Below are positions 30,986-42,063 of a stretch of 64,000 nucleotides of DNA, piece after piece; the first letter of the stretch is position 1; the number at the start of each line of letters is the position of its first letter. The position numbers and the translations under genes are program-made. Location: contig NZ_FTOQ01000007.1 of NCBI RefSeq assembly GCF_900156805.1, positions 62,001-126,000 of the forward strand, read 5' to 3'. The notes beneath the pieces are model-generated. The model was given only the letters and a program-made list of their open reading frames with translations, ran no database searches and was not told the origin of the DNA. The DNA comes from Roseivivax lentus. Lineage in GTDB: Bacteria > Pseudomonadota > Alphaproteobacteria > Rhodobacterales > Rhodobacteraceae.

Positions 30986-32581
30986 TCAGAACCCCGCCGC
31001 CTGTCCGTCCTTGCGCGGATCGGAGCCCGCCATGTAGCCGCCGCCTGGCAGTTTGCGGATCAGCTGCGCGCCGCCGAAACCGAAGGCGCTGTCAGGCGTC
31101 TCGACCTTGATCTCGTGGCCCATCCCGGCAAGTTGCGCCTGAGCTTCCACGGGCAGCGCTTCTTCGACGGCCACTTCGGCGCCCGCCACGAAGCGCCAGC
31201 GCGGCGCGTCGATGGCGGTCTGCACGTCCTGCCCCCAAAGCTGGGTGCGCAGCATCATCTGCACATGCCCCTGCGCCTGCATCGGCCCGCCCATCACGCC
31301 GAAGCTCATCTCGGGGGCGCCGTTCCTGGTCACGAAGCCCGGAATGATCGTGTGGAAGGGGCGTTTGCGCGGTCCGACATCGTTCTGATGACCTTTCTCG
31401 AGGGTGAAGCCCGCGCCGCGGTTCTGCAGGCTGATCCCCGTGCCCGGCACCACCACGCCCGAACCGAAGCCCGAATAGTTCGACTGGATGAAGGACACCA
31501 TCATGCCGCTGGCATCCGCCGTGGTCAGGTAGACCGTGCCGCCATGTTTCGGAGCACCAGGGCCGGGATGCTGCGCGCGTGCGGGGTCGATCAGCGCCGC
31601 GCGGGCCTTGAGGTAGTCGGGCGCGATCAGGTCCTCGACCGTCGGGGCCGTCATCGCGCCGCGATCGGCCACGTAAGCGTAGAGGTCGGCGAAGGCCACC
31701 TTGATCGCCTCGATCTGCAGGTGAAGCGCCTGCGGATCGTCCGGGCCATGGTCGCGGATCCCGGTATGCTCCAGCATCCCCAGCGCCATGAGCGCGGCGA
31801 TGCCCTGCCCGTTGGGCGGGATCTCGTGCAGGGTCCCGTCATCGAAACCGGTCTCGATCGTCCCGCACCATTCGGGCCGATGCGCGGCCATGTCCTCGAC
31901 CGTCAGCGCCGCGCCATGCTCGGCGGCGAAGGCCGCGATCTTCTCGGCCAGTTCGCCCTCGTAGAAAACGCGGCCCCCGGTCGCGGCGATCTTGCGCAGG
32001 CTGTCGGCCTGGGCGGGGTTGGCGAAGCGCTCGCCCGCCCGCGGTGCGCGTCCGCCGGGCATGAAGGCCTCGGCGAAGCCCGGCTGCTCGCCCAGCATCT
32101 CGGCTCCCTTGGCCCAGAGCGTGCCGATCACCGGCGAGACGCTGAAGCCGGCCTCGGCATAGCCGATGGCGGGCGCCAGCACCGTCTCGAGATCGAGTTT
32201 GCCGAACTTGTCGATCAGCTCCACCCAGGCGGCGATGGCCCCCGGCACCGTCACGCTCTCCCAGCCCCTAAACGGGATCTCGGACATGCCCGCGAAGCGC
32301 TCGGGCGTCCAGGCGGCGGGCGAGGAGCCCGACGAGTTGAGCCCGTGCAGCTTCTCGCCATCCCACAGGATGCAGAACCCGTCCGAGCCCAGCCCGCAGC
32401 CCGTGGGCTCCACCACGGTCAGCACTGCCGCCGTGGCGATGGCCGCGTCAACCGCGTTGCCGCCTTTCGCCAACATCGCGACCCCGGCCTGCGTCGCCAG
32501 CGGATGCGAGGTGGCCACCACGTTCTCGGCGAGAACCGGAGAGCGGCGCGAGGCGTAAAGGGCATCGTGACGGAAATTCAT
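30986..32581 (-). CDS. ggt: Gamma-glutamyltransferase
   Basis: 531-aa N-terminal-nucleophile enzyme that hydrolyses or transfers gamma-glutamyl groups (glutathione, gamma-glutamyl amides). The catalytic threonine is the one in KHGGTVYLTTAD, where autoprocessing would split the chain into large and small subunits. N-terminal motifs include ATSHPLATQAGVAML and EPTGCGLGSDGF. There is no evident signal peptide, so it is probably cytoplasmic, unlike E. coli Ggt. Its ATG overlaps the tctA stop by 4 bp, so it is the last gene of the tctCBA operon. That coupling suggests the carrier brings in a gamma-glutamyl compound, or an acid released from one. Confidence 0.88.
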   Translation of the reverse strand: MNFRHDALYASRRSPVLAENVVATSHPLATQAGVAMLAKGGNAVDAAIATAAVLTVVEPTGCGLGSDGFCILWDGEKLHGLNSSGSSPAAWTPERFAGMSEIPFRGWESVTVPGAIAAWVELIDKFGKLDLETVLAPAIGYAEAGFSVSPVIGTLWAKGAEMLGEQPGFAEAFMPGGRAPRAGERFANPAQADSLRKIAATGGRVFYEGELAEKIAAFAAEHGAALTVEDMAAHRPEWCGTIETGFDDGTLHEIPPNGQGIAALMALGMLEHTGIRDHGPDDPQALHLQIEAIKVAFADLYAYVADRGAMTAPTVEDLIAPDYLKARAALIDPARAQHPGPGAPKHGGTVYLTTADASGMMVSFIQSNYSGFGSGVVVPGTGISLQNRGAGFTLEKGHQNDVGPRKRPFHTIIPGFVTRNGAPEMSFGVMGGPMQAQGHVQMMLRTQLWGQDVQTAIDAPRWRFVAGAEVAVEEALPVEAQAQLAGMGHEIKVETPDSAFGFGGAQLIRKLPGGGYMAGSDPRKDGQAAGF

Positions 32582-34092
32582 GGTGCAGTTCCTTCTGCAT
32601 TTTCTTGTGTCTTCTTGGATTTGAAATGCGCCCGCACCGCCCAGGCGACCGAGGCCACAGCCGCGATCAGGAAGATCAGGCTTACCGGGCGCGTCAGGAA
32701 CAGCGACCAGTCGTCATCGGTCATCAGCGCCCGGCGCAGGTTGGTCTCGGCGATGGGGCCGAGGATCACGCCGAGAACGAGCGGCGCGAGCGGGTAGTCG
32801 AGCGCGCGCAGCGCGTAGCCGAAGAGCCCGATGAAGCCCAAGAGGTAGAGATCGTTCACCCGGTTGTTGAGCGCGAAGGACCCCACCACGCAGCAGACGA
32901 GCACCACGGGCACCACGACCCATTTCGGCACTTCCGCCACCCGCAGGAAGGCGCGCATCGACAGCACGCAGACCACGAGCATCATGAAGCTCGCCACCAC
33001 CATCGCGATGAACATGCCGTAGACCAGATCGGCATTGTCCATGATGAGCCGCGGGCCGACCGAGATGCCGTGCACCATCAGAGAGGCCATCAGGATCGCA
33101 TCGACCGCCGAGCCCGGAATGCCGAGCGCGATCAGCGGGATGAGCCCGCCGCCCGCGGTCGCCGAATTGCCCGCTTCCGAGGCCACGACCCCGTCGGTGA
33201 TGCCGGTGCCGAATTTCTCGGGCGTTTTCGAGGCCCGCTTGGCCTGGTCATAGGCCACGAGGTTGGCGATGGAGCCGCCGGCCCCCGGCAGCGCCCCGAT
33301 CAGCACGCCCACGATGGACGAGCGCACGAGGTTCACCGGGCGCATCAGCACCTCTTTCATCACCGCCCAGGTCTTGAAGTCGATCTCGCCGGTCACGAGC
33401 TTCTGGCCGGACTTGATCTTGCCCGCATCCTCGACCTCGGAGGCCAGCTGCGAGATCGCGAAGATGCCGATCAGCACGACGAGGAACGGAAGACCGGCGG
33501 CCAGCATCTCGATGCCGAAATCGAAGCGCGGGCGGCCGAGGATCGGGTCCGTGCCCACGGTCGAGATCGCGAGCCCGATGAGCGCCGCGATGAGGCCGCG
33601 CTGCAGCGAATGGCCCACAAGGCTCGCCACGATGGTCAGCGCGAAGACGATGAGCGAGAAATATTCCCAAGGGCCCAGCTTTACCGCGAAGATCGCCAGC
33701 GGCGGGGCTGCCACGATCAGCACCGCGGTCGAAATGACCGTGCCGAAGAACGACGCCCAGACGCCGATCGAGAGGGCCCGCCCCGGCTCGCCATTGCGCG
33801 ACATCGGGAAGGCGTCGAAGGTCGTGGCGACCGAGGAGGGCGTGCCGGGAATGCCCAGAAGGGCCGCCGAGATCAGACCGCCCGTATACCCGCCTACATA
33901 GACCGACAGCATCACCGCGATGCCCTGCAACGGGTCCATGGTGAAGGTCAGCGGCAGCGTCAGCACGATGGCCATGGTGACCGTGAAGCCCGGGATCGCC
34001 GCGGCGATGATGCCCGCGATGGAACCCAGAAGCATGTAGATCAGCGTCTCGACGGACAGGACCTGTCCGGCGCCGAGAAGAAAGGCGTCCAT
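32578..34092 (-). CDS. tctA: Tripartite tricarboxylate-type transporter, large membrane subunit
   Basis: 504-aa TctA-family protein with about 12 hydrophobic segments. The conserved glycine/proline motifs are present (AAAIPGFTVTMAIVLTLPLT near residue 33, and GIPGTPSSVATTFDAFPM near 80). It starts 3 bp after tctB and overlaps ggt by 4 bp. Works with TctB and the periplasmic TctC using an ion gradient. The substrate is not fixed by sequence; family members carry citrate, terephthalate and other acids. Confidence 0.9.
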   Translation of the reverse strand: MDAFLLGAGQVLSVETLIYMLLGSIAGIIAAAIPGFTVTMAIVLTLPLTFTMDPLQGIAVMLSVYVGGYTGGLISAALLGIPGTPSSVATTFDAFPMSRNGEPGRALSIGVWASFFGTVISTAVLIVAAPPLAIFAVKLGPWEYFSLIVFALTIVASLVGHSLQRGLIAALIGLAISTVGTDPILGRPRFDFGIEMLAAGLPFLVVLIGIFAISQLASEVEDAGKIKSGQKLVTGEIDFKTWAVMKEVLMRPVNLVRSSIVGVLIGALPGAGGSIANLVAYDQAKRASKTPEKFGTGITDGVVASEAGNSATAGGGLIPLIALGIPGSAVDAILMASLMVHGISVGPRLIMDNADLVYGMFIAMVVASFMMLVVCVLSMRAFLRVAEVPKWVVVPVVLVCCVVGSFALNNRVNDLYLLGFIGLFGYALRALDYPLAPLVLGVILGPIAETNLRRALMTDDDWSLFLTRPVSLIFLIAAVASVAWAVRAHFKSKKTQENAEGTAP

Positions 34093-34095
34093 GAT

Positions 34096-34602
34096 TTACC
34101 CTCTGGGCAGGAAGACGTTGAACACTTCGGCGAAGAGCCAGTTCAGGCCGAAGGAGAACAGGATCGACAGCACGATCAGCACGGCCATCGCCCCCTTCGT
34201 CTTCGGCGCGAGCGCGAATTGCAGCACGGCGAGGAAGACGAGCGTCGCGATGGGATAGCCGATGACGGGCATCGCCGCGAGGTAGAGGCCGAGGCAGACG
34301 AAGACCACGAAGACCAGCCGCCGCTCGGAGACCCAGATCGAGAAGGCCGTCGCGAAGGCGGCATAGGACCCGGCGGGCAGGCCGCGGAGGGTCTGGACGA
34401 TGGTGATGACCAGCAGCAGCATCAGGCAGCCATGCACGATCATCGGGAAGGCCCCGGCGCCGAGCGTCTCGAACCGCGAGGCGGGAATGTTCGTCGCCTC
34501 CCAGAACAGCCCCGCCGAGACCGCCAGAAGCGCGATGTAGGAGAGAAGCCGGGCAACCTCGCCCGGCTCCTTTCCACTCAGATCGGGCGCGGGCGCGCTC
34601 AC
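34096..34602 (-). CDS. tctB: Tripartite tricarboxylate-type transporter, small membrane subunit
   Basis: 168 aa with four predicted membrane spans (about 20-40, 53-73, 95-120 and 130-160), as in TctB. It starts with GTG, whose bases overlap the tctC stop (GTGA), so translation is coupled. Sequence conservation in this subunit is low, and the assignment rests on topology and position between tctC and tctA. Confidence 0.85.
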   Translation of the reverse strand: MSAPAPDLSGKEPGEVARLLSYIALLAVSAGLFWEATNIPASRFETLGAGAFPMIVHGCLMLLLVITIVQTLRGLPAGSYAAFATAFSIWVSERRLVFVVFVCLGLYLAAMPVIGYPIATLVFLAVLQFALAPKTKGAMAVLIVLSILFSFGLNWLFAEVFNVFLPRG

Positions 34603-35549
34603 GGGGCGAGGACCTCTGCGAGACGGTTCACCGTCTCGTCAAGCCGCGTGAGGTAGGCACCGTAGCCCTCCTGGCCGCGGAACTGCACCTCGGCCCCGGC
34701 ATTGTTCACCTGCTCGATAAAGGTGGCGTCCTGCGACAGCTCCGAAAGGGCCGCCTCGAGCCCCGCGCGCGCCTCCTCCGGGGCACCCTTCGGCATCACG
34801 ATGCCGCGGGTCACCGCAAGCTCCATATCCGCGCCAAGCTCCATGAAGGTCGGCACGTCGGGGGTCTGCGGCATGCGCTCGGGCGCGCCGGTCGCGAGGA
34901 AGATCAGGTCGCCGTTCTCGACGAACTGGCCGGCCGAGGACACGTCGCCGATGGCCACGTCGAGATTGCCGCCCACCAGCGCGCGGATGCGCTCGCCGGT
35001 GCCTTCGTACCCCACGTAGTTGAGCTCGAGATCGAAGGCTTCCTCGATCATCGCCGCATGCAGGTGCGGCACGCCGCCCAGGGTCACGCCGATGGACACT
35101 TCGCCGGGGTTTTCCTGGGCGTAGGTCACGAATTCCTCGAAGGTTTTGTAGGGCTGGTCGGCATTCGCCACGAGGAATTGCGGCGAGGCGGTCATCAGCG
35201 CGATGGGATCGAAATCCTGCCAGGTCAGATCGGTCAGCCCGGTGGCCGTGGCCGTCAGCAGACCCTCGTGCACCTGGCTGATCGTGTAGCCGTCCGCGTC
35301 GCGCTTCGACGCTTCGGTCAGGCCCACGGTGCCGCCCACGCCGGGCATGTTGATGACCGGCATCTCCGCGCCGAGATAGGGGGTCACGTTGTTGGCCACG
35401 ATGCGCATCAGCGTGTCGCTGCCGCCGCCCGGCGACCAGGGCACGATGAATTCGACGGGGCGTTCGGGGTAGGATTGCGCCTGCGCGGTGCCGGCCACCG
35501 AGGCGATGGCAATGGCGGCGCCGGCGGCGATGCGGGACAAGTGTGTCAT
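34599..35549 (-). CDS. tctC: Tripartite tricarboxylate-type transporter, periplasmic binding protein
   Basis: 316-aa Bug/TctC receptor. The signal peptide (AAGAAIAIASVAGTAQAQ) is followed by SYPERPVEFIVPWSPGGGSD, the hallmark N-terminus of this family, which contacts the ligand carboxylate. First gene of the tctC-tctB-tctA-ggt operon. The divergent LysR gene 130 bp away is the likely regulator. Confidence 0.9.
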   Translation of the reverse strand: MTHLSRIAAGAAIAIASVAGTAQAQSYPERPVEFIVPWSPGGGSDTLMRIVANNVTPYLGAEMPVINMPGVGGTVGLTEASKRDADGYTISQVHEGLLTATATGLTDLTWQDFDPIALMTASPQFLVANADQPYKTFEEFVTYAQENPGEVSIGVTLGGVPHLHAAMIEEAFDLELNYVGYEGTGERIRALVGGNLDVAIGDVSSAGQFVENGDLIFLATGAPERMPQTPDVPTFMELGADMELAVTRGIVMPKGAPEEARAGLEAALSELSQDATFIEQVNNAGAEVQFRGQEGYGAYLTRLDETVNRLAEVLAP

Positions 35550-35679: not shown

Positions 35680-36561
35680 ATGGACCTGCGCCAATTGGAA
35701 ACCCTCGTCGCCGTCGCCGAGACCCGGAGCTTTGCCGGCGCGGCGCGGATCGTGAACCTGACGGCTTCTGCCGTTAGTCAACAAATTCAAGCACTTGAGG
35801 CAGAGGTCGGGGTGTCGCTCTTCGACAGGCGCACGCGTCCGCCCCGGCTGAACGCGCAAGGCGAAGAGATGGTCCGGGCGGCGCGCCAGATGGTGCAGAC
35901 CATGACCGAAACCCGGCGCACCATCACCGGGGGCCGCACGTCGGGTGTGCTCAATTTCGGGGCGATCCGCACCGTCTCGCTCTGGCTCGCGCCCCTGGCC
36001 TTCGCGGCGATGCGGGCGCAGTTTCCGGCCTTGTCCTTCGATCTGCGGGTCGGCGTGTCCGAGGCGCTGATGGCCGATGTCTCGGCGGGCCGCCTCGATG
36101 CGGCGGTGGTGGCCGAGCATGTGGGCGTGCCCGCGGGGCTGATCTGGACCCCGGTGGTGACCGAACCGCTGCTGCTGGTGGCGCCCCCCGGGGCGGAGGG
36201 GCAGGATGCGCGCGCGCTTCTCGCCGAATATCCCTTCATCCGCTACGAGACCGACGTGCCGCTCTCGCGCCAGATCGAAACCGAGCTGTCCCGGATCGGG
36301 GTGCGTCGCCGCGAGATCGCGGTGTCGAACACCATGCCCTCTATCGTCGGCTGCGTGCAGGCGGGCCTCGGCGTCGCGGTGGTGCCGAAACTCGCCACGC
36401 TGAACCTGCCCACGGGCAGCCTGCAGATCCTTCCCTTCGGCCAGGAGCCGATCACCCGCCGGATCGGGCTTGTCCAACGCGAAGTGTCCGCGCGTTCCAA
36501 GGTGCTGGGCGCCATGCGCGACACGCTCGCGGCCACGGCCGGGGAATACGGGCTCGTCTGA
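35680..36561 (+). CDS. LysR-family regulator, likely of the tct-ggt operon
   Basis: 293 aa. N-terminal helix-turn-helix FAGAARIVNLTASAVSQQIQ (about residues 19-38), followed by LEAEVGVSLFDRR; the rest is the effector-binding fold with IGVRRREIAVSNT. No strong ribosome site precedes the ATG at 35680, so translation may be weak, as is common for autoregulated LysR genes. Divergent from tctC, which it most likely controls. Confidence 0.85.
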   Translation: MDLRQLETLVAVAETRSFAGAARIVNLTASAVSQQIQALEAEVGVSLFDRRTRPPRLNAQGEEMVRAARQMVQTMTETRRTITGGRTSGVLNFGAIRTVSLWLAPLAFAAMRAQFPALSFDLRVGVSEALMADVSAGRLDAAVVAEHVGVPAGLIWTPVVTEPLLLVAPPGAEGQDARALLAEYPFIRYETDVPLSRQIETELSRIGVRRREIAVSNTMPSIVGCVQAGLGVAVVPKLATLNLPTGSLQILPFGQEPITRRIGLVQREVSARSKVLGAMRDTLAATAGEYGLV

Positions 36562-36577
36562 GAGTTGTTGGGGTCGG

Positions 36578-36598
36578 GCCGGGGTCTTCGGACCCGGC
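36578..36598 (+). terminator. Hairpin with TTCG loop after the LysR gene
   Basis: GCCGGGGTC-ttcg-GACCCGGC forms an eight-pair stem with one bulge and a stable TTCG tetraloop, 17 bp after the stop. There is no long T-run. The rest of the 313-bp gap 36562-36874 shows only a weak stem (AGCCC at 36754, GGGCT at 36772) and a very strong GAAGGAGG site before the next gene. Confidence 0.45.
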
Positions 36599-36874
36599 AA
36601 TTCCGTTCGCGGGCGGCGCGCGGATCGGGCCCAACCTGCGAAGGCACGCACGTTCCGGCGCAACCGGACTTGCCGCAAGCCATTGAATAAAATTCGAAAA
36701 CACCTTCGGGTTGTCATGCAGACCACCGCTTGATAGGCATGGGGCAGATAAAAAGCCCAACCGTCGAGAACGGGCTGTTCTTCCCTGCACATGACACGCT
36801 GCGGAAGTGACCGGTCGGTTACGGAGAGCGCGCATTTTGCGCGCCGCGACGCATTGGCACATGAAGGAGGCACT

Positions 36875-38101
36875 ATGAACGACTTCAATCCGGAAAAGGG
36901 CTACGTCGCCCTCTTGGGCTGGTCCCTCAACGCCATCGACGCGGTCGACCGCTTCGACCGACGCTATGTCGTCGTGGCGCCGCCCTGGGCCGAGGATTAC
37001 TGCAAACAGAACGACATCCCCTTCATTCCGTGGGATTTCGACCGCCTCAACGAACGCTCGCACGAGCTGGCGCACCGGCTGGCCGATGAAGGCGTCGACG
37101 TGGCGATCCCGCTCTACGAGGAGACGGTGGAATGGGCCGGCGCGATCAATGCCGTGCTGCTGAAGAACCCGCGCCTTCTGGGGCAGTCGATGCTGTTCCG
37201 CGACAAGTCGCTGATGAAGCGGCGCGCGCAGCTCGGTGGCATCCGCGTGGGCGTCTTCGAGGAAGCGCATGACCGCGGCGACGTGATCCGCTTTCTCAAG
37301 CGGGTGAACCAGACGCTGCTGAAGCTCGATGGCGATCCGAACGATCCCATCCATTTCAAGGCCTTCGACAAGTCGGGCACGGCCGGTCACCGAGTTATCC
37401 GGACGCCCGAGGACGTCGACAACATCCCCGATGACGAGTTCCCGGCGCTTCTGGAAAGCCATCTCGACGGCTGGGAATTCGCGGTCGAGGCATGGATCAA
37501 GGATGGCAAGATCCAGTTCCTCAATATCTCGGAATACGTCACGCTGGGCTATTCGGTCTTCGTGCCGGCCACGCCCGAGCTCGAGGCGCATCGCGCCCGG
37601 GTGACCGAGGAGATCGAGAAGCTGATCGAGGCCTTCGACATCGATTTCGGCTTCATCCACCCTGAATACTTCCTGACCAGCGACAACAAGCTCTATTTCG
37701 GCGAGGTCGCCTACCGCCCACCGGGCTTCAAGGCGCTGGAGCTGATCGAGCGCGCCTACGGCTTCAACGGCTATCAGGGCCTCGTGCTGATGTTCGATCC
37801 GAACACCACGCAGGATGAAATCGACGCCTTCTTCCCCGAGGAAGTCACCGGCGCGAAGGGTCACGCGGGCTGTTTCGGCGTCTATCCGCGCCGTCGCGTC
37901 GTCAGCCGTCTCGAAGTGCCCGAAGAGACCGCGAACCATCCCTATTTCGAGTTCCACGAGCTGGCCGAGCCCATGGAAAGCAAGGTCACGAAGCGCACCG
38001 CCTTCGGCACCCATTGGGGGCTTGCCTATTTCTTCGGCGAGGACCCGCATCAGCTGCGGGATCTCTTGAAGGCGCAGGAAGAGCTTGATTTCTATGTCTG
38101 A
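36875..38101 (+). CDS. ATP-grasp ligase-like protein
   Basis: 408 aa behind an excellent ribosome site (AAGGAGG). The fold is the ATP-grasp/carboxylate-amine ligase type: an N-terminal substrate half (YVALLGWSLNAIDAVDRFDR), a central ATP-binding half with FKAFDKSGTAGHRVI and LLESHLDGWEFAVEAWI, and the metal-binding end DFGFIHPEYFLTSDNKLYFG followed by EVAYRPPG, equivalent to the E..N/EVNPRPPG of ligases such as PurK or biotin carboxylase. Such enzymes form amide or peptide bonds through acyl-phosphates. The next gene, 27 bp downstream, carries a papain-like residue pattern, so the pair may make and break the same bond. Confidence 0.8.
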   Translation: MNDFNPEKGYVALLGWSLNAIDAVDRFDRRYVVVAPPWAEDYCKQNDIPFIPWDFDRLNERSHELAHRLADEGVDVAIPLYEETVEWAGAINAVLLKNPRLLGQSMLFRDKSLMKRRAQLGGIRVGVFEEAHDRGDVIRFLKRVNQTLLKLDGDPNDPIHFKAFDKSGTAGHRVIRTPEDVDNIPDDEFPALLESHLDGWEFAVEAWIKDGKIQFLNISEYVTLGYSVFVPATPELEAHRARVTEEIEKLIEAFDIDFGFIHPEYFLTSDNKLYFGEVAYRPPGFKALELIERAYGFNGYQGLVLMFDPNTTQDEIDAFFPEEVTGAKGHAGCFGVYPRRRVVSRLEVPEETANHPYFEFHELAEPMESKVTKRTAFGTHWGLAYFFGEDPHQLRDLLKAQEELDFYV

Positions 38102-38128
38102 GGGAACAAACGAGGCGCCCAAGCGGTG

Positions 38129-40105
38129 ATGAACCTGATGGACAAGGGTGTTGGCGATGTCGCGCGTCTGACTGCGACGCTCGATGTCGCGCTCGACCGG
38201 CTCGACCGGTCGCGCCCGTTTTCCAAGATGTCGAACCAGCGTCCCGTTCTCGACGTGCTGTCACGCATGATGGCCGCCGAGGGCGGGCTCGACGCGATCC
38301 TCGCGCGTGCGCCCGATCTCGACCGGGCGGGGCTGTTCGCCGGGTCCGACTGGGATGCGCCCAATGCGCTTCTGCCGCAACTCTCGGGCCAGACGCTCGA
38401 GGGCGAGGACCGGCTCTTGGCCGCGCTCGAAGTGGCGAGCGTCATGCGCTTTCTCGCTGTCGCCATGGGCGAAGCGCAGCATCCCGCGCTGCAGCAGGAT
38501 CACGCGCGCCATTTTCTAACCCAGCTTCTGGCGCTCAACCTGCGGCGGTTCTTCGATTTCTCCGACGAGGCGAGCCGCGCCGCGGGTCCGCGCGCCGAGA
38601 TCACCGCGCGCGTGCTGCGCATGATCGCCGACCGGATCGGCCTGCAGGACGTGCTGGGCCAGATGGTGCACGAGATCTGGCGCATCCTCGAACAGCGTCC
38701 GGTGCAGATGGGCCCGGTGAAGGACATGATCACCCAGATCGCCATCGTCCTTGCGCGCGAACACAGCCCCTCGGGGCCGGAGCGGCTGGGCGCCGAGCGG
38801 CTCGTCAGCGCGCTTTTCGGTCCGACCGGCGAAAGCCGCGACGATCCCGGCATCGACGCCTATGTGGCCCGGCTCGATCACCTCGACGAGGTGGCGCTGT
38901 CGCGGGAGGCGATGGGCTTTGCGCGCTCGATGCACGATACCGGGCTCGTCTCGGATTACCATGCGGGCTTTCTGGTCTGGGCGCTGGATTACCCCGACCG
39001 TCCCTTCGTGCCCGAGGCGCTGGGACTCGGGTCGACCGGTTCCAATTGCTGGCAGCAATTCCAGGGTCTGATTGCCGATCTGATCCGCATGAGCGTCACG
39101 CCCGCGACCGCGCAGGCGGTCTACGGCCTCGCGCAGCTTCTCGAACGCGGGGTGCTGCATGCCCCGCCCATCGCACCTGCGCTGCGCCGGGCGATGACCA
39201 TCGACTTCGCGCCCGCGGTGTCGGACCGGCTGGCGCTGGGCTTCGGACCCAAGATCGACCCGCACAGCCTGATGATCGCCGGTATCCTCGACGTGCTCGG
39301 CAAGCCGCTGGGCGTGGGGCAGGGGGCCAACCCGACCTGCCAATCGGCGCGCGCGCTATCGATGTGGGCGCTGAACGATCCCGATTTCCTGCTGCACCTC
39401 GTGGTTCAGGCCGCCGAGGCCGAGACGGTCGTCATGCATTTCGAGGGCCACCGGATCAGCTCTGCCGATCTGCCCATGGGCCTTGCGGGCGCGGGGCCCA
39501 TCGACGCCGATCCGGTCTCGGTGCTGCTGGTCCCGCATCTCGACCGCATCTATGCCGAGATGGGCCGTCTTTGCGCAGGGCGCGGCGGCGATCCGCATCG
39601 CTGGATCAATCCCGAATTTCACGGCTGGTGGGTGGCGCGGGACTGCGCGGTGGCGGTGGATGTCGCCACGGGCAAGCTCGACGATTACGAGCGCTTCGTC
39701 GCGCGCTTCCATGAAAGCTATCACCCGGAATACAACGGCGACCGCCCGCTCATTCACCCCCAGCCCGCGGGGATCGCCTTCACCGACCCCACCGGCGCCT
39801 TCATCGGCTGGCACGCCATCACGATCCTGCGCGTGGCACCGGGCCGGACCGGGGAAATGCGGGTCTATTTCTACAACCCGAACAACGACAGCGGGCAGGA
39901 TTGGGGCCACGGGCTGACCGTGACCACGAGCGGCAACGGCGAGCGGCACGGCGAAGGGTCGCTGCCTTTCGAGGAATTCGCCTCGCGGCTCTATCTTTTT
40001 CACGACCAGCCGCACCGGACGGAGCGCCTCAAGGCGGTGCCGCCGGAGGTGATCGCCCGCATCCGCGACATGGCGGTCGAAAGCTGGGCCAAGACGCGGG
40101 TCTGA
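38129..40105 (+). CDS. Large uncharacterised protein with papain-like catalytic pattern
   Basis: 658 aa from ATG 38129 (GTG 38126 also possible), with no signal peptide or membrane span. Residues 1-380 are helical and unlike anything I recognise. From about 385 the pattern of a papain-type enzyme appears: Q398 six residues before C404 in GVGQGANPTCQSARALSMWA, exactly the oxyanion-Gln-to-Cys spacing of papain; then H562 in FIGWHAITILRV and an Asn/Asp cluster, first N583, in VYFYNPNNDSGQDWG. This supports a Cys-His-Asn hydrolase, amidase or transglutaminase fold, but no alignment was run. It probably acts with the upstream ATP-grasp protein. The operon ends at a terminator right after it. Confidence 0.72.
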   Translation: MNLMDKGVGDVARLTATLDVALDRLDRSRPFSKMSNQRPVLDVLSRMMAAEGGLDAILARAPDLDRAGLFAGSDWDAPNALLPQLSGQTLEGEDRLLAALEVASVMRFLAVAMGEAQHPALQQDHARHFLTQLLALNLRRFFDFSDEASRAAGPRAEITARVLRMIADRIGLQDVLGQMVHEIWRILEQRPVQMGPVKDMITQIAIVLAREHSPSGPERLGAERLVSALFGPTGESRDDPGIDAYVARLDHLDEVALSREAMGFARSMHDTGLVSDYHAGFLVWALDYPDRPFVPEALGLGSTGSNCWQQFQGLIADLIRMSVTPATAQAVYGLAQLLERGVLHAPPIAPALRRAMTIDFAPAVSDRLALGFGPKIDPHSLMIAGILDVLGKPLGVGQGANPTCQSARALSMWALNDPDFLLHLVVQAAEAETVVMHFEGHRISSADLPMGLAGAGPIDADPVSVLLVPHLDRIYAEMGRLCAGRGGDPHRWINPEFHGWWVARDCAVAVDVATGKLDDYERFVARFHESYHPEYNGDRPLIHPQPAGIAFTDPTGAFIGWHAITILRVAPGRTGEMRVYFYNPNNDSGQDWGHGLTVTTSGNGERHGEGSLPFEEFASRLYLFHDQPHRTERLKAVPPEVIARIRDMAVESWAKTRV

Positions 40106-40108
40106 TCG

Positions 40109-40138
40109 GGGCGGGGCATCTACGCCCAGACATTTTTT
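40109..40138 (+). terminator. Rho-independent terminator of the ATP-grasp/papain-like operon
   Basis: Stem GGGCG / CGCCC (40109-40113 and 40123-40127) with a 9-nt loop, then a run of six T at 40133-40138. It lies four bases after the stop codon, so the two-gene unit is bounded. Confidence 0.55.
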
Positions 40139-40281
40139 CCCTCGGTCAGGCTGGTTCTTCTGTATTGGAGCGACCCGAGCCCGCGACCGCGCGTAGATTT
40201 CCGCGCCCCGGGCCTTGATCCCGGCGCGCGGGCAGGCACGTTGAGGCGCGAAGAGACGCAGCGCGGCGGGATGCGGACGGC

Positions 40282-42063
40282 ATGACACAGATCCAGACCA
40301 TACTCGCGCAATACGACGCCTGGATCGCCCTCACGATGGTCGTGACCCTTTTCGCGATCCTGATTACCGAGATTTATCCGCCGGAGGTCCCCGCCGCCGG
40401 CTTCGCCGCGCTTTTCGTGGTGCTGGGCTTTGTCCAGCCGGACGAGCTGATGTCGGTCTTCTCGAACCCCGCGCCGCTGACCATCGCGGCGATGTTCGTG
40501 CTGTCGGGCGCGCTGGTGCGCACGGGCGTGCTGGAGGCGATTTCCAACCTCGCGATCTCGCGGGCGCAGACCCAACCGCGCCTCGCGCTCGGCGTGATCC
40601 TCGGCATCGCGCTCCTGGCCTCTGGCTTCATCAATAACACCGCGGTCGTGCTGGTGCTCATCCCCGTGATGATCCGGCTCGCCGCAGCCTTGGGCAAGTC
40701 GGCCACGCAGCTGCTGATGCCCTTGTCCTACATCGCGATCCTTGGCGGGACCTGCACGCTGATCGGCACCTCGACCAACCTGCTGGTGGACGGCGTCGCG
40801 CGGGATACGGGGCTCGCGCCCTTCCGCATATTCGAGATCACGCCGGTCGGCCTTTTCGTGGCGTTCTGCGGGGCGGCGACGCTTGCCCTCTTGGGACGGC
40901 GCCTTCTGCCCAACCGCGAGGCCACCGATCCCGACCAGATGCTGGGCGAGACCAACTTTCTCTCCGAGGCCCAGATACTCGAGGGCGGCTATGACGGTCT
41001 GCCGCTCGGCGAACTCGGCCCCTTCGATCGTTCCAGCGTCGAGGTGATCGCGCTGCGGCAGGGAGGCAAGCTTCACCGGTCGCCGTCACCGGAGATGACC
41101 GTGTCGAAGGGCGATACGGTGATCTTCCGCGCGCCGACTTCGGAGTTGCTGACCATGCGGGAGGATGCGGGCCTTGCCATCGGCCTCAACAATCGCCGTC
41201 AGGCCGATACGGATGATCTGCTCACGGTCGAGGTCATCGTCTCGCCGCGCAAGTCGAGCATCGGCAACGCGCTGGGGCGCATGTCGCTCGGTCGGCGCTA
41301 CGGCGTGCGCGTGCTGGGCGCGCATCGCCACCGGCGCACCATCGGGCCGGAACTGAAGGATGTAAAGCTGCGCCCGGCGGACAAATTGCTGATCGAGGGG
41401 CCGTCCGAAGCCTACCAGATGCTGGCGGACGAGGCCGAGCTCGTCTCGGTCAGCCGACCGACGGGCCGGGCCTTCCGCCGCCGGCGCGCGCCCCTGGCGC
41501 TTGCCGCACTCGCCCTCGTGGTGGTGCTGTCGGCCTTCGGTCTCTTCGATATCGCGACGCTGTCGATCATCGCGGTCTGCGCCATCCTCGTCTTGCGCTG
41601 CATCGATGCCGATGAAGCCTGGGGGGCGGTGGACGGCTCCATTCTCGTGCTCATCTTCGCCATGCTGGTGATCGGGATCGGGTTGCAGAATGCCGGGGCG
41701 GTGGCGCTTCTGACCGGCTGGCTCTCGGGATTGATCAGCGATTTCCCGCCCTTCTTCGCGCTGTTGTCGGTCTATCTTCTGGCTTCCATTCTGACGGAAA
41801 CGGTGACCAACAACGCCGTCGCCATCGTCTTCACGCCCATCGCCATCGGTCTTGCAGGCAGCACCGGGCTCGATCCGCGGGCGCTGACCATGGCGGTGAT
41901 GTTCGGCGGCTCGGCGAGTTTCGCGACTCCGATCGGGTATCAGACGAACACGATGATCTACGGCGCCGCGAATTTCCGCTTCACGGATTTCCTGAAGATC
42001 GGCCTTGTGATGAATCTGACCACGGGTGTGGCGGCCTGCGCCGGGATCATCTGGATGTATTAG
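40282..42063 (+). CDS. SLC13-family anion transporter with TrkA-C domains
   Basis: 593-aa membrane protein of the DASS/SLC13 group (dicarboxylates, sulfate). Paired transport motifs are present: FINNTAVVLVLIPVM and GTSTNLLVDG in the first half, ETVTNNAVAIVFTPIAIG and TPIGYQTNTM in the second. Between the halves, about residues 205-400, lie two soluble RCK/TrkA-C domains (SSVEVIALRQGG and DDLLTVEVIVSPRK), which bind regulatory ligands in this class. The substrate, probably sulfate or a dicarboxylate, is not determined by sequence. Confidence 0.87.
   Translation: MTQIQTILAQYDAWIALTMVVTLFAILITEIYPPEVPAAGFAALFVVLGFVQPDELMSVFSNPAPLTIAAMFVLSGALVRTGVLEAISNLAISRAQTQPRLALGVILGIALLASGFINNTAVVLVLIPVMIRLAAALGKSATQLLMPLSYIAILGGTCTLIGTSTNLLVDGVARDTGLAPFRIFEITPVGLFVAFCGAATLALLGRRLLPNREATDPDQMLGETNFLSEAQILEGGYDGLPLGELGPFDRSSVEVIALRQGGKLHRSPSPEMTVSKGDTVIFRAPTSELLTMREDAGLAIGLNNRRQADTDDLLTVEVIVSPRKSSIGNALGRMSLGRRYGVRVLGAHRHRRTIGPELKDVKLRPADKLLIEGPSEAYQMLADEAELVSVSRPTGRAFRRRRAPLALAALALVVVLSAFGLFDIATLSIIAVCAILVLRCIDADEAWGAVDGSILVLIFAMLVIGIGLQNAGAVALLTGWLSGLISDFPPFFALLSVYLLASILTETVTNNAVAIVFTPIAIGLAGSTGLDPRALTMAVMFGGSASFATPIGYQTNTMIYGAANFRFTDFLKIGLVMNLTTGVAACAGIIWMY

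Follow-up and report, generated by a model that had tools for sequence, protein, structure and literature searches.

Introduction

Glutathionylspermidine synthetase/amidase (GspSA) is one fused protein, in which amide synthesis and papain-type amide hydrolysis are kept together. Its amidase domain is of the CHAP type, C51.A, according to PMC10318531. Here, we describe a pair of adjacent genes with a comparable logic, located in a 64,000-nucleotide stretch of Roseivivax lentus DNA (contig NZ_FTOQ01000007.1, positions 62,001 to 126,000), hereafter called the window, whose numbering we use throughout. Both genes lie on the + strand: the first (36875-38101) encodes a predicted ATP-grasp ligase of 408 amino acids that resembles L-amino-acid ligases, and the second (38129-40105) encodes a predicted papain-like protein of 658 amino acids from a family without a name. 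An original prediction, made from the sequence of the window alone, had compared the pair with GspSA. The logic fits, and weak polyamine neighbours of the pair add to the likeness, but the family differs, as the pair consists of two separate genes and neither protein has a CHAP or GSP_synth Pfam match at E values up to 10.

The ligase resembles the ATP-grasp L-amino-acid ligases (BacD/YwfE, RizA, and BL00235) in the fold predicted for its whole length (Z = 25.9 to 28.3) and in an HxE...ExxxR metal-site motif. Unlike them, it shares only 13 to 16% sequence identity with the group, stays below the Pfam ATP-grasp_4 cut-off, and is usually tied to a papain-like partner. The second protein has in common with the papain superfamily (calpain core, staphopain, and cathepsin B) the residues Gln, Cys, His, and Asn in order, a helix at the Cys, and its best structural matches. 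In contrast to that superfamily, it matches no papain family model, has a 384-residue helical domain in front, is apparently cytoplasmic, and reaches only a middling Z score (8.3). An osmolyte dipeptide made with an ATP-grasp-type enzyme also has a precedent: N-acetylglutaminylglutamine amide (NAGGN) is made by an asparagine-synthetase-like protein together with a GNAT/ATP-grasp protein. The compound is described as an osmolyte dipeptide in PMC1224877. However, no NAGGN-type NCBIfam model matched either window protein.

We propose, giving it just under an even chance of being right, that this two-gene operon is a small-molecule bond-making and bond-breaking pair in the service of salt adaptation. 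The strongest clue, invisible in the window sequence alone, is that ectoine synthase is present in every genome found with the pair.

Predicted structures and conserved residues

The ligase matches Pfam ATP-grasp_4 at E = 2e-4 (21.4 bits), which does not reach the cut-off of 27. When a profile of 32 homologues was compared with the PDB, it identified 4dim (E = 2e-4), 3vot (E = 0.0014), and 4wd3 (E = 0.0026). The predicted model is of moderate confidence (predicted local distance difference test, pLDDT, 74.7), and its five best structural matches, with 347 to 359 residues aligned, are all L-amino acid ligases: 3vot (Z = 28.3; 359 residues, 4.5 Å), 4wd3 (Z = 27.0), 3vmm (Z = 26.1), 3wo1 (Z = 26.0), and 3wnz (Z = 25.9). 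The entry 4dim, deposited as a phosphoribosylglycinamide synthetase, ties with ranks three to five (Z = 25.6), and PurK-type enzymes come next (Z = 24.3). By profile alignment, the HxE...ExxxR motif of 3vot and 4wd3 corresponds to H262-x-E264...E277-V-A-Y-R281 in the window protein (37664-37717, + strand). E264, E277, and R281 are invariant in 83 of 83 homologues, among which median pairwise identity is 77%; we take the two glutamates to be metal-binding and R281 to be the active-site arginine. From sequence and model, we read this protein as a predicted carboxylate-amine ligase of the dipeptide-ligase type.

The papain-like protein is predicted to begin with an all-helical domain (residues 1-384, 38129-39280), the fold of which was not matched, followed by a papain-like domain (residues about 385-630, 39281-40018), both on the + strand. 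Its model (pLDDT 89.7; predicted template modelling score, pTM, 0.84) shows helices to about residue 390 and then an alpha/beta domain. The four residues of the papain pattern named in the original prediction are found where it had placed them, with their codons on the + strand and with these predicted roles: Gln398 (39320-39322), the oxyanion-hole glutamine of papain-like enzymes; Cys404 (39338-39340), the nucleophile; His562 (39812-39814), the general base; and Asn583 (39875-39877), which orients the histidine. They follow the papain order, with a spacing of six between Q398 and C404, and all are invariant in 88 of 88 homologues, so the pattern lies far beyond chance. These homologues comprise 76 of the 84 loci sampled below and 12 from further stretches; the eight loci left out are five without a called start, L047 (shortened by a stop), and L004 and L005 (other orientation). 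In the model, C404 opens helix 404-416, H562 lies inside strand 558-571, and N583 comes just after strand 577-582, which we take to be the papain arrangement.

Structure comparison of the same model gave middling scores. Foldseek returned 247 PDB rows, none at E ≤ 0.001. When VIA-align was applied to these rows, 20 of the 21 best were calpain or staphopain structures (Z = 7.0 to 8.3 over 135 to 215 residues), and residues about 365-628 were placed on calpain cores, staphopain, and cathepsin B. Individual values were Z = 8.3 for the calpain core 1mdw (207 residues, 4.5 Å), 7.3 for staphopain 1cv8 (135 residues, 3.9 Å), and 5.6 to 5.9 for cathepsin B. The C-terminal papain-like domain has a median pairwise identity of 66%, compared with 46% for the helical domain. 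Taken together, model and alignment support a predicted papain-like C-terminal domain, with a complete Gln-Cys-His-Asn set, behind a helical domain. Both proteins of the pair appear to be cytoplasmic, as no signal sequence is visible by eye.

At least 591 loci encode relatives of the papain-like protein, yet no Pfam or NCBIfam model searched covers the family. Pfam offered no papain family either for the window protein (E up to 10) or for 42 members (E up to 1); the best Pfam match among the latter, tRNA-synt_His (E = 0.0036), was below its cut-off and was rejected. No NCBIfam model matched the window protein. Single-protein and profile searches of PDB sequences yielded nothing relevant, the best profile match being a designed helical protein (E = 0.62) that was likewise set aside. 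PADLOC gave no match, and thus no support for a defence role. The Foldseek viral library contained nothing at E ≤ 0.001, phage records held no usable match, and 85 pattern matches in viral contigs included no relative. One record in a plasmid collection, Halomonas PA16-9 (1.8 Mb), carries the ligase and papain-like genes side by side. Since these searches gave only that record, a phage or mobile origin of the pair is unsupported. A search of the literature, restricted to an open library, found no description of this ligase and papain-like pair.

Linkage and distribution of the pair

The relatives of the papain-like protein were found in a scan of species genomes, and linkage was assessed in 84 loci, window included: the best 80 of the at least 591, plus four from a search of 41 relatives. 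Selecting the best 80 biases the sample towards close relatives. In 79 of these 84 loci, the gene immediately upstream on the same strand encodes the ligase; 74 of the linked ligases are nearly full length, three are cut by a contig edge (L051, L056, and L077), and two are disrupted by runs of N or by a frame break (L060 and L075). Of the five remaining loci, L039 and L078 have no ligase, L054 is at a contig edge, and L048 and L074 have a partial one. The genomes of L039, L054, L074, and L078 all carry a full ligase elsewhere (72 to 73% identical). In three of these four genomes, a second papain-like gene stands beside that ligase, in the other order or divergently. Gene order varies (ligase-papain, papain-ligase, or divergent), yet adjacency persists. 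Both starts were called in 67 pairs; the two genes overlap in 17 of these and are less than 100 bp apart in 57.

The two partial ligases differ in form. In Marinobacter vulgaris (L074, 7813-7905), a 31-codon ligase tail is found 5' of the papain-like gene, and another pair is present elsewhere in the genome. In Roseovarius lutimaris (L048, 7669-9548), ligase residues 1-124 abut the papain-like protein from residue 144, the result of either a deletion spanning both genes or an assembly error.

Across 398 genomes of Pseudomonadota, the papain-like family occurs in 11, and the ligase occurs in the same 11 (Fisher test, P = 1e-21); a twelfth ligase match is weak (E = 2e-5, 64 residues). All 11 have at least one adjacent pair. 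This co-occurrence, together with the adjacency in 79 of 84 loci, rules out a chance neighbourhood. It also answers the call in the original prediction for a survey of co-occurrence: no genome was seen in which the two genes are never neighbours, although in the fourth of the genomes above (G044) both genes end at contig edges and adjacency cannot be judged. The pairing that it had described, of an ATP-grasp amide former with a papain-like protein whose N-terminal half is novel, agrees with the invariant residues, the predicted folds, and the frequent adjacency.

The papain-like family was detected in 9 of 198 genomes in a survey of the bacterial family and in 4 of 385 in a survey of the class, both counts including the window genome. 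All matches in the three profile surveys were strong (E below 1e-280), which marks the protein family as tight and patchy. When the 41 relatives were searched with the single protein, four matches were strong and one was weak (G039; E = 7e-4, with an internal stop); the profile did not repeat the weak one. Phylogenetic trees place a distant ligase subtype in one supported clade of 13 tips. Three alphaproteobacterial loci (L023-L025) combine this distant subtype with ordinary alphaproteobacterial papain-like partners; the pairing thus appears to have outlasted a replacement of the ligase.

Association with ectoine synthase

New here is the finding that all 28 genomes found with the pair encode ectoine synthase (EctC, PF06339). 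In the phylum survey, EctC was detected in 60 of 398 genomes (59 over the cut-off), comprising 11 of 11 with the pair versus 49 of 387 without it (Fisher test, P = 4e-10). Counted by genus, 7 of 7 genera with the pair have ectC, against a background of 35 of 213 genera (P = 2e-6). Within the bacterial family, other genera show the same trend (8 of 8 with the pair versus 5 of 19 without; P = 6e-4). Shared descent is ignored in all three tests. A further 17 of 17 genomes with the pair encode EctC, completing the total of 28. Among 24 chosen genomes without the pair, EctC occurs in 10, namely 5 of 5 from the window's genus and 5 of 19 from other genera of the family. Hosts with names are mainly marine, saline, or soda-lake bacteria. 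According to PMC5924519, a PF06339 match need not imply a full ectoine pathway; all four ect loci inspected contain ectA, ectB, and ectC.

Other genes of ectoine metabolism follow the pair less closely. EctD (E < 1e-90) was found in 14 of 22 genomes with the pair, whereas 7 of the 24 EctC genomes lacking it encode this enzyme (P = 0.02), five of the 24 with a score over the cut-off. Ectoine hydrolase (E < 1e-150) was found in 16 of 22 genomes with the pair, and in one more as two fragments, versus 19 of 23 without; over the curated cut-off, the counts are 7 of 22 and 8 of 23.

A search of 148 loci revealed ectC beside the pair in two unrelated bacteria, an observation made after the fact. In Oceanibium sediminis (L023, 1922-2317), a whole, solitary ectC lies 0.56 kb from the pair in divergent orientation, surrounded by genes that look transposase-like by eye; the ligase here is of subtype II. 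In a member of the Desulfobacteraceae (L040, 6597-6680), a 3' remnant of ectC, consisting of its last 24-27 codons, lies ~75 bp upstream of the ligase gene on the same strand. One lone ligase copy, L137, has an UmpAB-like antiporter gene at a distance of 0.9 kb and a BCCT transporter gene at 2.6 kb.

Proposed function and alternatives

We infer the chemistry, direction, and purpose of the pair as follows. The ligase would use ATP to join an amine to a carboxylate, namely that of an amino acid; the papain-like enzyme would hydrolyse or transfer the resulting amide via a Cys thioester. The helical domain may hold the substrate or regulate access to the active site. Judging from the phyletic pattern, the product may serve salt adaptation in ectoine producers, either as an additional compatible solute, subject to synthesis and removal, or in the form of a conjugate whose amine is connected with ectoine metabolism. 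It is possible, though doubtful, that this amounts to an osmoadaptation pathway not described before, whereby, in ectoine producers, the ligase makes a new amide or dipeptide compatible solute, or a conjugate with a diamine from the sphere of ectoine metabolism, and an intracellular papain-like amidase of a new class removes it at falling salinity. Our best guess for the amine partner is a diamine (diaminobutyrate or a polyamine), and we hold this guess loosely, as one on the unlikely side. If the ectoine link is true, the pair would point to an overlooked component of salt adaptation in bacteria that are well studied and used in biotechnology (Halomonas, Marinobacter, and the Roseobacter group); it would also mean that bacteria couple a papain-like enzyme inside the cell to a ligase of the peptide type.

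Several observations weigh against our preferred reading. The pair is absent from 49 of the 60 EctC genomes of the phylum set and from five EctC genomes of the window's own genus; it is therefore not needed for ectoine. The ectABC genes of the window genome sit on another contig, and in all four genomes compared the pair lies outside the ectABC operon (on another contig in G000, 69 kb away in G443, and more than 0.6 Mb away in G631 and G056). Ectoine hydrolase shows no link with the pair and hydroxyectoine synthesis a weak one; neither is supported as a specific partner, and neither explains the pattern. Both genes also occur as lone copies: the ligase in L137 (G631) and L140 (G708), and the papain-like gene in L132, L135, and L141. 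The latter belong to three genomes of one genus (g552), each with at least three papain-like genes, one of them without an adjoining ligase; at most three candidates per genome were scored for such copies. A further ligase copy, in G872, lies near a contig end (L138). Finally, every one of the 28 genomes with the pair contains deacetylase-like genes (PF00850; 1-8 matches per genome), but so do 16 of 17 genomes that lack it, so that only the closeness of these genes to the pair counts.

Habitat could also produce the ectC pattern without a direct link; the tests ignore shared descent. The pair would then turn over peptides or amides in marine and saline bacteria and share nothing but habitat with ectoine synthesis. 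ectC marks saline habitats in general, which fits this explanation, as do the distance from ectABC in the four genomes compared and the mostly unrelated genes around the pair. The nesting of the pair within ectC genomes is tight, however, at 28 of 28, and ectC or its remnant adjoins the pair in two unrelated loci; we consider habitat alone quite unlikely to be the answer.

The remaining alternatives concern the chemistry. RimK-like ATP-grasp enzymes provide a model for protein tagging, in which the ligase would attach an amino acid or a peptide to a protein of the cell, the papain-like enzyme would trim or remove it, and the helical domain would recognise the protein. The long helical domain (residues 1-384) could indeed, as modelled, be a protein-binding solenoid, and the first Foldseek rows for the papain-like protein, none of them significant, include karyopherins and beta-catenin. 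There is also a reviewer's remark, in PMC4431377, asking that CDC123 be named a predicted ATP-dependent protein-peptide ligase. Nevertheless, tagging seems improbable: the nearest structures of the ligase are small-molecule dipeptide ligases, the helical domain is the least conserved part of its protein, and the neighbours scanned include no third gene that recurs and could encode a target protein. Alternatively, the two enzymes might act in series, with the papain-like enzyme as an acyl- or aminoacyl-transferase that hands the ligase's amide on to a second amine, so that a linear pathway leads to a single end product. Papain-like folds have been proposed as transacylases in biosynthetic clusters, for example BtrH and a further family (PMC2922099), and a one-operon layout fits consecutive steps as well as opposed ones. 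However, a strict series does not predict the three papain-like copies without a ligase beside them, and no second substrate is visible, so we regard it as unlikely. A small-molecule pair that makes and breaks an amide for salt adaptation remains our preferred, and tentative, reading.

Neighbouring genes

Neighbours of the pair were scanned in 63 of the 84 loci, using 221 proteins of at least 130 amino acids from up to two genes per side; the 21 loci passed over are mostly near-duplicates or short contigs. Genes were called crudely, by taking the longest or the most conserved open reading frames. Of these proteins, 210 were scanned, the 11 left out coming from L039 (two), L060 (one), L081 (four), and L086 (four). 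No third fixed gene was found, the commonest families having three and four members in tallies that list 25 of 90 and 25 of 103 families. Three groups recur across lineages: deacetylase-like genes, Peptidase_Mx, and a cluster with a ureohydrolase-type member.

A deacetylase-like gene (365-377 amino acids when complete) is found no more than 2.3 kb from the pair in five of the 84 loci (L041, L044, L047, L055, and L061), three of which come from one family. In L142, the end of the papain-like gene overlaps with another such gene; in L140, one lies 3.1 kb from the lone ligase, and in L016 the distance is 4.6 kb. This closeness is a modest signal (P of about 0.01-0.04, against a rough within-flank control). 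As a hint, the amine-type neighbours point to an amine or polyamine conjugate.

The lone papain-like copies have neighbours of their own. In L141 (2941-8870), a putrescine-uptake operon, PotF...PotI, is followed after three bases by the papain-like gene; the best models for this operon, PotF and PotI, are both below their cut-offs. In L132 (6025-11841) and L135 (6279-10868), the papain-like gene is followed by GCS2-like (glutamate-cysteine-ligase-like) and AstE/AspA-like genes, with a gene of the metallo-beta-lactamase fold in between in L132.

The other two groups show no clear closeness to the pair. A Peptidase_Mx-type cluster occurs 1-6 genes from it in different lineages (L023, L032, L051, and L070), of which Pfam named the L023 member only (PF15887). 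The ureohydrolase-type cluster is one gene away in L018, L022, and L038 and further away in L027 and L034; only L038 passed a motif test, and Pfam counts two members of the Arginase family.

Features of the window

The two genes of the window pair are separated by 27 bases; counted from a GTG at 38126 rather than the ATG at 38129, the papain-like protein has 659 residues. A start at 36791 in the list of open reading frames is mechanical, as homologues begin near position 36875. The very strong ribosome-binding site of the original prediction is present (AAGGAGG, 36864-36870, + strand, four bases 5' of the ATG at 36875). The terminator that it had reported was not recovered: a consensus scan of 36500-40500 found none, where shuffled sequences average 2.7. 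No sigma-70 promoter was found by consensus scan, nor a common motif by eye among upstream stretches. Upstream of the pair lies a LysR gene and, on the opposite strand, a gamma-glutamyltranspeptidase gene adjoining a TctABC tripartite tricarboxylate transporter set (30986-35549, - strand). Downstream are genes for a CitMHS/TrkA_C transporter and, on the opposite strand, for an arylsulfotransferase-like protein.

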